Part shown: one piece after another, positions 2,949 through 29,876 of the stretch | How the letters are laid out: each line of letters opens with the position of its first letter | How positions within the stretch are numbered: the stretch's first letter is position 1 | From: Methanoregula sp. | Lineage (GTDB): Archaea > Halobacteriota > Methanomicrobia > Methanomicrobiales > Methanospirillaceae | NCBI GenBank assembly: GCA_028679185.1 | Contig: JAJRBZ010000088.1 | Location: forward strand, 1-32,311 | DNA length: 32,311 bases | Direction of reading: 5' to 3' | Program-made: the position numbers and the translations under genes | The notes under the pieces: generated by a model | What the model was told of the DNA's origin: nothing | Databases searched by the model: none | Seen by the model: only the letters and a program-made list of their open reading frames with translations

Positions 2949-3635
2949 TTATCCCCAGCCCACAAGCTCCTGTGTTATATCACCATCAGTTGACTTAATC
3001 ACCATCTTGACGAACATTGGAACATTTGGAGCTGTCCAGTACGTGGAAGTCATTCCTTGAATGGTTGCAGTATATTTCATTGCAGCCGGATAAGTGCCAG
3101 CCGGAACGGTAACGGGTTCAACACCAACAAAGGTATACTGCACAGTCTTGTCCGTATTCGGATCCTTTGGTGCCTTAGTTGTGTCTCCAGGCGGAATGTC
3201 CTGGTCAATGACTGTTTGTCCATTCGAGATCATTTTCATGTGACCTCCCAATGAGACTCCTGAAGCATCCACGTACATATCGGTAATTGTTGTAGCAGAC
3301 ATCGGTGTTGTCATGGTACTTGTCATCTTCATGTGTGTCGCAGCCTTGCCCTGGTAGGTATCCTGGGAGACTTCAGTTTTAATATTCGATGACATGTCCT
3401 TTGAAGTCATCTTATATTCATACCATTTGTAATTGGCGTTCCCGAAAATACTCGCCCCACTGACGATGGATCCTGCCGACGGTGCTGAGCCACCTGCCGC
3501 AGAGCCCCCTGCTGTCGTGGCTGCCGGGGTTGCGCCGGTTGCCGTTGACGATGGGGCAGTGCTCGAACATCCTGCAATTGCAACGGCAATTACAACAAGC
3601 ATGATTGCAATGATACTGATACGCGAAATTTTCAT
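2949..3635 (-). CDS. Secreted lipoprotein, unknown function
   Basis: A 228-residue protein with a basic N-terminus (MKISR), a hydrophobic segment and a lipobox-like IAGC, so Cys22 or a nearby residue is the probable lipid anchor. A Ser/Thr/Ala/Gly-rich linker follows to about residue 60, as in many methanogen surface proteins. The remaining domain is rich in Thr and beta-forming residues and ends with a VTVPAGTYP turn, similar in style to DUF3108-like lipoproteins. The ATG at 3635 is chosen because GGAGG at 3644-3648 lies 8 nt upstream; the ATG at 3650 overlaps it. It acts outside the cytoplasmic membrane; ligand or partner is unknown. Confidence 0.75.
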   Translation of the reverse strand: MKISRISIIAIMLVVIAVAIAGCSSTAPSSTATGATPAATTAGGSAAGGSAPSAGSIVSGASIFGNANYKWYEYKMTSKDMSSNIKTEVSQDTYQGKAATHMKMTSTMTTPMSATTITDMYVDASGVSLGGHMKMISNGQTVIDQDIPPGDTTKAPKDPNTDKTVQYTFVGVEPVTVPAGTYPAAMKYTATIQGMTSTYWTAPNVPMFVKMVIKSTDGDITQELVGWG

Positions 3636-3674
3636 TTTTATTTCCTCCATATATAATGGAAATACCTGACAACG

Positions 3675-3692
3675 TCCCTGCTGATACAGGGA
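3675..3692. promoter_or_regulatory. Short hairpin in the lipoprotein 5' leader
   Basis: TCCCTG (3675-3680) and CAGGGA (3687-3692) form a 6-bp stem with a 6-base loop, upstream of the lipoprotein ribosome site and downstream of an AT-rich TATA-like stretch at about 3727-3742. It may be a leader structure or chance. Confidence 0.25.
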
Positions 3693-3924
3693 TTGCTGAT
3701 GCCGGGATTATGGGGGTAATTTATGTATTATTATATTAAAGAATTTCGAAAAGCCTCTTGCCGTGGTGATTATTATTTCGTTAAACACTTTTCCAGTCCC
3801 TTGAGAACAAGGCCGCTTTTCCGGCAACACCCTGTACAGACCAGGAACGAAAAGAACGATATATTTTCAATACGCAGCAACGCACCCTCTTCCTTTATCT
3901 TCCACCGTTACCATAACCAATTTA

Positions 3925-4824
3925 ATGATAAGCGATTCTACCGCCGACCTCCTGACCCTTATCAAATCCCACATTTCGGATCAAAAGAAGCCAATCTCTA
4001 TGGTGCGTAAGGATTTTTCTGCATTCTACGAGAATATGCAGGATGATCCAGGAGAATATATGATTACCGAACGCGTGGAGCTCACTAATGGTGCCTATGG
4101 CTACTGGATCGACGTTCCGGAAGCGGTTCCTGATTGCACGATTCTCTTTTTTCATGGTGGAGGTTTCACGTGTGGGTCAACAAAAGACCATATGGGATTG
4201 TGTACACGGTTAGCCCGGGCTGCACGGGCACAGGTTTTCTCTGTGGATTACCGGTTAGCCCCGGAATTTGTTTTTCCTGCAGCAGTTGAAGATTCGATTG
4301 CTGCCTACCGCTACCTGATCAGTCACAATTATCTTCCGCACCGGATTATTCCGGTAGGTATTTCAGCCGGGGGGACTCTTGTACTCGATCTTCTCATATC
4401 TGCACGTGACCTGGGATTACCTCTACCCCCGGCCGGAATCTGCATGTCCCCTGCTGTAGACCTGCTTTTTGAAGGTGAGTCGGTGGAAAAGAATATGGAC
4501 AATGACTGGATCACCCCTGCACGACTCAATGAAATCCGAACTATGTACCTTACCGGGCAAGACCCAAAAAATCCCCTCGCATCGCCAATCCATGCTCGTC
4601 TTAACAGTCTCCCGCGGCTCTATATTCAGGCCGGCACGCACGAACTGCTCCTGTCAGGGATCGCATCATTCGTCGACAAGGCACGGTGGGCAGGAGTGCC
4701 TGTCCAGTTCGAGCTCTGGGAGGGGATGTTCCACAGCTGGCAGGTGTTTGCCAGGCAGGTGGCTGAAGGAGAGCGGGCAATAAACAATATCGGGGCATAT
4801 GCCCAGGATGTACTTCTCAGATGA
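3925..4824 (+). CDS. Alpha/beta hydrolase of the hormone-sensitive lipase family (esterase)
   Basis: A 299-residue carboxylesterase-type hydrolase. The oxyanion-hole motif HGGG is at residues 77-80, the nucleophile Ser147 sits in GISAGG, the catalytic acid is probably Glu240 (GTHELL) and the base is His270 (FHSW). This is the complete HSL-family triad and the length is normal for it. Expected substrates are short-chain acyl esters, though the natural one cannot be read from sequence. The ATG at 3925 lacks a clear ribosome site and may be leaderless or use a weak signal. There is no signal peptide, so it is cytosolic. No functional link to the neighbours is evident. Confidence 0.88.
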   Translation: MISDSTADLLTLIKSHISDQKKPISMVRKDFSAFYENMQDDPGEYMITERVELTNGAYGYWIDVPEAVPDCTILFFHGGGFTCGSTKDHMGLCTRLARAARAQVFSVDYRLAPEFVFPAAVEDSIAAYRYLISHNYLPHRIIPVGISAGGTLVLDLLISARDLGLPLPPAGICMSPAVDLLFEGESVEKNMDNDWITPARLNEIRTMYLTGQDPKNPLASPIHARLNSLPRLYIQAGTHELLLSGIASFVDKARWAGVPVQFELWEGMFHSWQVFARQVAEGERAINNIGAYAQDVLLR

Positions 4825-27663: not shown

Positions 27664-28122
27664 TTCTCTTCACGCCTGATTCGGGATTTCTTTGGATATG
27701 AAGGTTATGTGTTCTGTTCTTTCGATTCATCCCTTGTCTGTGATCCTGGATATGATCTGCTTGTACTTCTGCTCTTATTAAGGGAACCTGGTATAAACGC
27801 CGGTCTCAGATTTCAATCAGTGTCTTGGTGAGGCAATCCATAAAAATTCTTTCGGAACGATTGAAGTTACTTTTGGGACGGAGGAATTTTAAAAAACGAA
27901 CCTTCCTCTTTTTCGGTTATCAATGAATACACGTTGACCTAAAAGAGGTCGTGAGATTGTTCATGTGAAATGGGCAGCAGGAAGAGACGCACAGGCGGAG
28001 GATTGGAAATATCCCGCCGGTTATCAGGACCGGACACTGGAACCCTGATCCTGTCTGTTTTATTAAGAGCAGGGCATTGATGGCCAAACATTAGTATTAT
28101 ATCATAGCTCGTGTAAACAGAA

Positions 28123-28140
28123 TTTTCTGATTTTTCTGAT
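28123..28140 (+). promoter_or_regulatory. Tandem 9-bp repeat upstream of the hgc TATA box
   Basis: Two back-to-back exact copies of TTTTCTGAT, at 28123-28131 and 28132-28140, end two bases before the TATA box. The position covers the BRE/TFB region, so a bound protein would block or help TFB/TBP loading. This is a candidate operator of the mercury-methylation genes. Confidence 0.5.
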
Positions 28141-28142
28141 AA

Positions 28143-28150
28143 TTATAAAT
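28143..28150 (+). promoter_or_regulatory. TATA box of the hgc operon
   Basis: TTATAAAT, a good archaeal TATA element 35-42 nt before the ATG at 28185. The predicted start is near 28170-28175, giving a very short leader. Confidence 0.65.
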
Positions 28151-28184
28151 ATGAAGAAAATTTAACATTATTATAAGAATTGAA

Positions 28185-28475
28185 ATGACGAAAAAGAAAT
28201 CAGTTGGAGAATGGGGTAATCAGGAGGAGTCAGCCTGTGGCTGCAGCACGGACACGGGGTGTAAGGTAGAAGCGGTATTGAGCATAGACGATCGCGGTCA
28301 GATGGTGCTCCCAAAGGATGTGCGTGAAAAAGCCGGTATCCGAACCGGAGACAAGCTTGCCCTGATCAGCTGGGAAAAGGGCGGTTCGATCTGTTGCCTT
28401 GCACTCATGAAAGTCGAGAACCTCAACGATCTGGTCAGGGACGTTCTCGCCCCGGTACTCGAGCACCAGGGTTAG
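28185..28475 (+). CDS. hgcC: HgcAB-associated AbrB-type protein (HgcC)
   Basis: A 96-residue protein. Residues 27-75 are an AbrB/SpoVT swapped-hairpin DNA-binding domain (VLSIDDRGQMVLPKDVREKAGIR), which normally dimerises and binds DNA. The N-terminus holds Cys18, Cys20 and Cys26 (ACGCSTDTGC) and the domain itself has Cys70-Cys71. Genes of this kind are known as HgcAB-associated proteins because they precede hgcA in many mercury methylators. A regulatory role, possibly metal-responsive through its cysteines, is plausible but unproven. The gene is first in the unit, 19 nt before hgcA, directly behind its TATA box. Confidence 0.88.
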   Translation: MTKKKSVGEWGNQEESACGCSTDTGCKVEAVLSIDDRGQMVLPKDVREKAGIRTGDKLALISWEKGGSICCLALMKVENLNDLVRDVLAPVLEHQG

Positions 28476-28494
28476 AGGGGGTCAAAAGCAGACT

Positions 28495-29544
28495 ATGACA
28501 GATACTATCTCGTCAGGAAGATCCTGTTGTGGACCTTCCTGCTGCAGGGCAGAAAACACATCAGAACCTGAAATCCGCACTACCACCAGTATAATTACGC
28601 CCGCAAACCGTCTTGAACACTTTCTTGCCCGGTGGGGAGTGAACCGGATGGGCCACCGGGTGGAACCAGGGCTGTACCGGCTCGGCGACCCGACACCGGA
28701 TTCGGAAGTCTTTGCATCGGCAAACTACACCCTGAGTTTTGATGCGCTCAGGTCAGCGCTCGATGGCAGGAATGCATGGATCCTTGTACTGGACACCAAA
28801 GGAATCAATGTCTGGTGTGCTGCAGGAAAGGGAACATTCGGGACTGACGAACTTATCCGGCGTATCGAATCCACGGGTCTTGCAGGTGTCGTCCGGCACC
28901 GGAAGATTATCCTCCCCCAGCTGGGAGCGCCAGGGGTTTCATGGCAAGAAGTGGTCCGGAGATCAGGGTTTATGGTTGAATATGGACCGGTGCAGGCACG
29001 TGATCTCCCGGCATTTCTTACAACCCACTCAGCTACTGCGGAAATGCGGAAGGTCGAGTTCCCGCTCCGTGACCGGCTTGTGCTTATACCTGTAGAGCTG
29101 GTACATGTTGTTCTCCCGGCAATCGCAGCAGCGATTGTCCTCTTCTTCCTTGCCGGCCCGACCAGTTCACTGGCAGCGATCGCCGCTGTTTTAGCGGGCA
29201 CCGTACTTTTCCCTGCCTTGCTGCCGTTTATTCCTACGAGTGATTTTTCCACGAAAGGGTTCATCATGGGAACAATTGTTGCTGTTCCGTTTGCGGTTTC
29301 ATTTTCAACAGAACCTGTACTTCCCTTCTGGGCAAAAATACTCGCAGCGACAGCACCGCTTCTTATCATTCCGGCCGTGACTGCATACCTTGCCCTCAAT
29401 TTTACCGGCGCAACTACCAGCACTTCAAGGACCGGGGTAAAAAAAGAAATCTTCAGGTATATCCCGGTCATGGCACTCATGGCAGGGTCCGGGATCACTA
29501 TCGGAATTCTTCTTGGGGCAAGCCGTTTTATGGGGTTGATCTGA
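28495..29544 (+). CDS. hgcA: Mercury methylation corrinoid protein HgcA
   Basis: A 349-residue membrane-bound corrinoid protein that carries the methyl group transferred to Hg(II), producing methylmercury. The diagnostic cap-helix motif NVWCAAGK is at residues 105-112, with Cys108 as lower ligand of the cobalt. The corrinoid domain (about 35-185) is followed by a C-terminal region with about five membrane helices (from about 195 to the end), exactly the HgcA layout. The extreme N-terminus has a cysteine patch, Cys11, 12, 16 and 17 (CCGPSCC), before the corrinoid domain. GAGGGGG at about 28475-28481 is a rather distant ribosome site for ATG 28495. The stop overlaps the hgcB ATG by one base (TGATG). 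Confidence 0.97.
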   Translation: MTDTISSGRSCCGPSCCRAENTSEPEIRTTTSIITPANRLEHFLARWGVNRMGHRVEPGLYRLGDPTPDSEVFASANYTLSFDALRSALDGRNAWILVLDTKGINVWCAAGKGTFGTDELIRRIESTGLAGVVRHRKIILPQLGAPGVSWQEVVRRSGFMVEYGPVQARDLPAFLTTHSATAEMRKVEFPLRDRLVLIPVELVHVVLPAIAAAIVLFFLAGPTSSLAAIAAVLAGTVLFPALLPFIPTSDFSTKGFIMGTIVAVPFAVSFSTEPVLPFWAKILAATAPLLIIPAVTAYLALNFTGATTSTSRTGVKKEIFRYIPVMALMAGSGITIGILLGASRFMGLI

Positions 29545-29876
29545 TGTTTGATTCCTATACTGATACTACACTGAAGTTTTATCCTGACCGGTGTATCAAC
29601 TGCCTGCGCTGCACCCAGGTCTGCCCTCATGGGGTCTTTACTCAGGGAAATGACCATGCAGAACTCGCTTACCCGGCATCATGCATGGAGTGCGGTGCCT
29701 GTGCCCTCAACTGCCCGGTTCAGGCGATTACTGTACAAAGCGGAGTGGGGTGTGCGTGGGCAATGATCTCGGCTGCGCTCAGGGGTAAGAATATGGACAG
29801 CTGTGAATGCAGCTGTGGTGGAGGAGAGGATTCCTGTTGCGGACAACAGGAAAAAAAAGCTCCTCCCTGCTGCTGA
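29544..29876 (+). CDS. hgcB: Mercury methylation ferredoxin HgcB
   Basis: A 110-residue 2[4Fe-4S] ferredoxin that reduces the HgcA corrinoid to Co(I) for methyl transfer. The two clusters are ligated by Cys17, 20, 23, 57 and Cys47, 50, 53, 27 in the usual crossed pattern. Cys70 in GVGCAWAM is the family-specific cysteine shown to matter for methylation, and the C-terminal Cys109-Cys110 pair is the mercury-binding tail known from HgcB. Extra cysteines at 87, 89, 91, 98 and 99 make the tail unusually rich. The gene is translationally coupled to hgcA through TGATG. Confidence 0.97.
   Translation: MFDSYTDTTLKFYPDRCINCLRCTQVCPHGVFTQGNDHAELAYPASCMECGACALNCPVQAITVQSGVGCAWAMISAALRGKNMDSCECSCGGGEDSCCGQQEKKAPPCC

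Follow-up and report, generated by a model that had tools for sequence, protein, structure and literature searches.

HgcC, an AbrB-fold protein encoded beside mercury- and arsenic-methylation genes, as a candidate metal(loid)-responsive regulator with a common predicted operator

Introduction

The hgcAB genes of Methanoregula, Methanosphaerula and Methanospirillum have been described, several relatives methylate mercury in culture, and methylmercury was made by eight of the nine hgcAB-positive methanogens that were assayed (PMC5893877). SAM is the demonstrated methyl donor of HgcAB (PMC11588087). The inducer of hgcAB and the native role of these genes are questions of mercury biogeochemistry. 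Concerning regulation, an AbrB/PrlF-like gene located 5' of archaeal hgcA was reported in 2023, when it was read as a toxin-antitoxin gene and as mainly a trait of archaeal hgcAB (PMC10349881). In Pseudodesulfovibrio mercurii ND132, as cited in the same paper, an ArsR-like regulator is co-transcribed with hgcAB and controls them.

The window analysed here is a stretch of 32,311 nucleotides from Methanoregula sp. (assembly GCA_028679185.1, contig JAJRBZ010000088.1). It is alike to the hgcAB loci of the three genera above (PMC5893877) in its genes, the hgcA-hgcB order, the NVWCAAGK motif and the two ferredoxin clusters; there is no essential difference. The gene preceding hgcA, hgcC (NF040962), is the same gene at the same position as the AbrB/PrlF-like gene of PMC10349881. 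Unlike the reading given there, the family proved to be equally linked to arsM, to occur also in bacteria, and to have conserved cysteines and a defined predicted operator. HgcC and the P. mercurii regulator, as far as the latter is portrayed in the citing paper, would be alike as arsenic-type regulators at hgcAB, yet they are unrelated, the P. mercurii protein being a winged helix and HgcC an AbrB fold; the same task would thus have been solved independently by HgcC. In the literature searched, which left most subscription papers outside its scope, the AbrB-hgcA link was already present, whereas we found neither AbrB linked with arsM or arsenite methyltransferase in the sense proposed here nor the name hgcC used alongside hgcAB, and novelty is claimed provisionally.

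Results

A complete hgcC-hgcA-hgcB unit in Methanoregula

An earlier note, made from the letters of the sequence, had claimed a complete hgcC-hgcA-hgcB unit with its own TATA box, and had proposed a profile search with HgcA and HgcB models. All three open reading frames are present on the forward strand: hgcC (28185..28475, 96 aa), hgcA (28495..29544, 349 aa) and hgcB (29544..29876, 110 aa). A gap of 19 nt separates hgcC from hgcA, and the hgcA stop and hgcB start share 1 nt (TGATG). Applying the curated equivalog cutoffs of the NCBIfam models, each product scored above its threshold: HgcC with 118.5 bits against 70 (NF040962), HgcA, a corrinoid methyltransferase with a membrane domain, with 442.2 against 275 (NF040863), and HgcB, a dicluster ferredoxin, with 114.9 against 99 (NF040864). 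The TATA box, TATAAATA, was located at 28144..28151 on the forward strand, 33 nt before the hgcC start codon at 28185. By its sequence, the locus thus reads as a full mercury-methylation operon of three genes under an archaeal promoter of its own.

The note had named a better match of HgcA to a CdhD/CFeSP corrinoid protein as grounds for refutation. There was none: the best CFeSP/CdhE-type model (PRK04165) scored just 62.6 bits where its cutoff is 306, so that a CdhD/CdhE paralogue is out by score. CFeSP chains in the PDB cover only residues 55-175 of HgcA. A second HgcA-like match in the same genome is a separate locus with 28% identity. The cap helix and five membrane helices attributed to HgcA were recovered as NVWCAAGK at residues 105-112, with Cys108, and as five hydrophobic peaks at about 205, 226, 255, 282 and 325. 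As for HgcB, the two ferredoxin clusters (CxxCxxCxxxCP motifs at C17-C27 and C47-C57) and C70 are as claimed; the cysteine pair kept among relatives, however, is C98-C99 ('SCCG') and not C109-C110 at the very end, which is more variable.

The corrinoid domain of HgcA is preceded by an N-terminal leader rich in cysteine (CCGPSCC, encoded at 28495-28560), and leaders of other members of the order are also cysteine-rich (CCSCS...CxC). In one congener (L060, G170:C4), hgcA is broken into two frames, reflecting a frameshift or an assembly error.

The host is represented by a metagenome-assembled genome (MAG) of 104 contigs, 97% complete. The earlier note had placed the unit in a methanogen; no match to mcrA or mcrG was found in this MAG, whereas mtrA is present, beginning at base 10 of contig C48. 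mcrA was detected in 28 of 39 congener genomes, the other 11, host included, giving no match. Because mtrA begins at a contig edge and most congeners carry mcrA, the missing genes most likely fall into a gap of the assembly and the host is most likely a methanogen; we rejected a non-methanogenic host. At G000:C47:3901-4380 (L099), an ORF for an AbrB-like antitoxin of 159 aa lies immediately 5' of a PIN-like toxin ORF, and its N-terminal segment is similar to the McrA N-terminus (25.5 bits, E 8e-6), in a MAG that lacks mcrA.

The view that few archaea carry this gene set did not hold: within the genus HgcA scored above the cutoff in 30 of 39 genomes, and across the order in 83 of 232. The prediction that the organism makes methylmercury is a fair one, given the eight producers among nine assayed hgcAB-positive methanogens (PMC5893877). 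The hgcCAB gene set in this organism is known biology, ordinary for the genus. What is new concerns HgcC, namely its linkage to arsM, its cysteines and a predicted operator common to both operon types, which the earlier reader had missed 5' of the TATA box.

HgcC is encoded next to hgcA or arsM

HgcC had been described as an AbrB-type, HgcAB-associated protein. The AbrB-type assignment and the position ahead of hgcA stand. HgcC scored above the cutoff in 106 genomes of the order, 62 of which also have HgcA above the cutoff; since the other 44 do not, 'HgcAB-associated' overstates the relation. In these HgcA-less genomes HgcC is found together with arsM where neighbourhoods were read. Conversely, 21 of the 83 HgcA-positive genomes have no HgcC above the cutoff.

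We assembled 139 distinct HgcC proteins, with duplicates removed, drawing on HgcA-less genomes of the order and on named genomes of other groups. The archaea include other Methanomicrobiales families, Methanosarcina, Methanothrix, Methanoperedens and Bathyarchaeota, and the bacteria Chloroflexota, Nitrospirota, Thermodesulfobacteriota and Actinomycetota. Immediately downstream lies hgcA in 67 cases and arsM in 60, mostly within 30 nt; in the remainder arsM (5) or hgcA (1) is nearby, the contig ends (4), or neither is found (2). The identity of ArsM was confirmed in three representatives (NF008823, 348-363 bits against 263). As controls we took 20 AbrB paralogues that fell short of the HgcC cutoff, from the genomes already sampled or from related ones. 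None of the 20 adjoins hgcA or a true arsM; two have distant SAM-methyltransferase-like genes in their vicinity (30.9 and 53.5 bits). The host genome itself has no arsM above the cutoff, and the arsenic link in this organism is therefore one of homology only.

At L087:4989-5198 and L101:1834-2109, HgcC-like proteins are encoded with neither hgcA nor arsM next to them, and no operator was found there. Both loci have two conserved downstream genes in common, which in L101 encode a 156-aa protein of unknown function and a DsbD-like membrane protein. In an uncultured archaeon (L180:251-2382), a SAM-dependent methyltransferase gene sits between hgcC and hgcA; its product scored 75 bits with the ArsM model, whose cutoff is 263. 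The arrangement is noteworthy since HgcAB takes its methyl group from SAM.

These neighbourhoods bear on the published proposal that hgcAB is appended to a toxin-antitoxin module whose PrlF/MazE-like antitoxin is HgcC (Zhang et al. 2023, PMC10349881). HgcC and MazE do have the AbrB fold in common, and the Pfam call on HgcC is MazE_antitoxin. Beside HgcC in the window, however, no cognate toxin was found; the next gene is hgcA, and the upstream neighbour encodes an unrelated membrane protein on the opposite strand. In the 127 of 139 cases with hgcA or arsM as the next gene, a toxin gene would mostly not fit into the space between. Nor does an antitoxin account for the operator common to metal(loid)-methylation genes and for the conserved cysteines, both described below. 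With no adjoining toxin and with methylases as the linked genes, we rejected this reading, whose probability we regard as very low.

A repeated TCWGA operator at hgcC promoters

The hgcC promoters contain TCTGA or TCAGA half-sites at a spacing of 9 bp, usually three consecutive ones. Two perfect half-sites at this spacing were found in 83 of 126 promoters, compared with a mean of 0.15 in dinucleotide shuffles of the promoters, and other spacings (6-8 and 10-15) occurred in 0 or 1 of the 126. Triple sites matching at 13 or more of 15 positions are present in 64 of 66 hgcA-linked and 49 of 60 arsM-linked promoters (113 of 126 together; 0.4 per 126 in shuffles). Across 0.8 Mb of HgcC and hgcA loci, the sites matching at 14 or more positions all lie at hgcC promoters (84 by strict distance and 4 where the called ORF overran the hgcC start). 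Perfect triples occur at 31 places in 231 genomes, 11 of them at hgcC promoters. Upstream of hgcA at nine loci without HgcC the operator was absent (0/9), two weak 13/15 chance matches occurring elsewhere. ArsR regulators are encoded at several of these nine loci, and the ArsR-like genes tested all belonged to the ArsR family (4/4). On this pattern, the hgcA and arsM operon types appear to have one previously undescribed operator in common. At one ArsR-linked hgcA (L019, G158), an ORF with Met/Cys-rich repeats (MMMMSECME, SMCDC) lies about 0.9 kb upstream, at 3427-3933, and may encode a metal-binding protein or be a spurious frame.

In the window, the predicted HgcC operator is found at 28117..28139 on the forward strand (ACAGAATTTTCTGATTTTTCTGA; ACAGA-ATTT-TCTGA-TTTT-TCTGA), with three TCWGA-type half-sites at the 9-bp period and a match at 14 of 15 positions. 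The 2.1-Mb host genome contains just one other site with no more than one mismatch (C45:18420, one mismatch), which lies in no clear promoter. The window site stops 4 nt short of the TATA box, where BRE would be expected, and an operator abutting or overlapping the promoter is what one expects of a metal(loid)-responsive repressor. Its placement just 5' of BRE, a position open to archaeal activators, could also mark an activation site from which HgcC, as an activator or dual regulator, recruits TBP/TFB. In several bacterial hgcC promoters (for example L163 and L165), however, the repeats, as judged by eye, cross the likely -10 region; this arrangement fits repression and is why we favour it, and we rate activation as quite unlikely.

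Fold and conserved cysteines of HgcC

The AbrB domain of HgcC was recognized by TIGR01439 (34.2 against a cutoff of 28.3). An AlphaFold model of moderate confidence (pLDDT 74.6, pTM 0.52) gave SpoVT/AbrB proteins as best Foldseek matches, with probabilities of 0.98-1.00 for the top matches and weak E values (0.02-0.1). The model supports an AbrB/SpoVT fold for HgcC, while it does not back distances between cysteines. The swapped-hairpin fold is common to HgcC and the AbrB/SpoVT DNA-binding family; what sets HgcC apart is its cysteines. One cysteine just ahead of strand 1 is present in 121 of 127 linked HgcCs, and a CC pair in strand 4 in 124 of 127; the equivalents in the window protein are C26 and C70-C71. 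None of the 20 control paralogues has the CC pair. The first cysteine is missing in a few HgcCs (for example L084, L092, L114 and L134), and the archaeal hgcA-linked branch carries an extra CxC (C18 and C20 in the window protein). Found in a small protein encoded near As(III) and Hg(II) methylases, the three conserved cysteines suggest a soft-metal site.

If HgcC were a nonfunctional AbrB gene that hitchhikes with an ordinary hgcAB operon and confers no special regulation, the commonness of hgcAB in the genus and the HgcA-positive genomes that lack HgcC would be readily understood. Against this, the near-strict linkage, the conserved cysteines and the operator persist across phyla, and we consider such a gene very improbable.

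A further candidate signal is some other factor common to these operons, such as SAM, corrinoid status or thiol redox/sulfide, with HgcC tuning operons for methyl transfer. ArsM uses SAM, and the HgcC thiol site could act as a redox switch; as HgcAB too draws its methyl group from SAM (PMC11588087), a SAM- or methyl-linked signal stays a rival. Nearly all HgcC loci, however, are linked to metal(loid) methylation only, the cysteine pair with the third cysteine resembles the soft-metal sites of ArsR-type sensors, and at some hgcA loci ArsR regulators occupy the place of HgcC. We therefore regard a signal of this kind as unlikely.

Discussion

Taken together, these results make HgcC, rather than an antitoxin, a probable autorepressor that responds to metal(loid)s through its cysteines and serves mercury- and arsenic-methylation operons alike. 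We infer that HgcC binds the TCWGA repeats with their 9-bp spacing, abutting or overlapping the core promoter; bound at 28117-28139 beside BRE/TATA, it would keep expression of hgcCAB low. The proposed ligand is a soft metal or metalloid, As(III) and/or Hg(II)/MeHg, which would be bound by C26 and C70-C71 and, in the archaeal hgcA-linked branch, additionally by C18 and C20. Metal(loid) binding to these cysteines would release HgcC from the operator and relieve repression. Of the two enzyme components, HgcA would transfer a corrinoid-bound methyl group to Hg(II), while HgcB would donate electrons and carry the mercury. Since the ArsR-like regulator cited for P. mercurii hgcAB parallels HgcC, arsenite is a good first candidate for the ligand. 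The arsM operons of other archaea and bacteria would be run by the same regulator-operator module, and its presence there argues for a metal(loid)-methylation switch and not for part of a toxin-antitoxin system.

On a tree of 136 HgcC rows, built from few alignment columns, the hgcA and arsM labels require at least 6 changes by parsimony, compared with a mean of 44.5 for shuffled labels, and the well-supported branches of this few-column tree force two of these changes. The label changes therefore indicate that the regulator has moved between the two operon types. In our estimation the chances are even that HgcC is the first member of a new class of soft-metal sensors, in which an AbrB-fold repressor combines cysteines for metal(loid) binding with a TCWGA operator of 9-bp period, and that arsM and hgcAB operons of archaea and bacteria have repeatedly exchanged it.

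For annotation, the 44 HgcC-positive genomes of the order without HgcA above the cutoff mean that the label 'HgcC' is no marker of mercury methylators. The occurrence of the HgcC module at both operon types suggests that toxic metal(loid)s provide one kind of signal for switching both. If regulator and operator are indeed common to arsM operons and to the hgcAB operons of archaea and some bacteria, arsenic, and not mercury alone, could influence how much methylmercury wetlands and paddies produce, and the native role of hgcAB would point to metal(loid) defence. Should the new sensor class prove true, arsenite-type signals would induce mercury methylation in many methanogens, and the idea that hgcAB arose from the detoxification of arsenic or soft metals would gain support.
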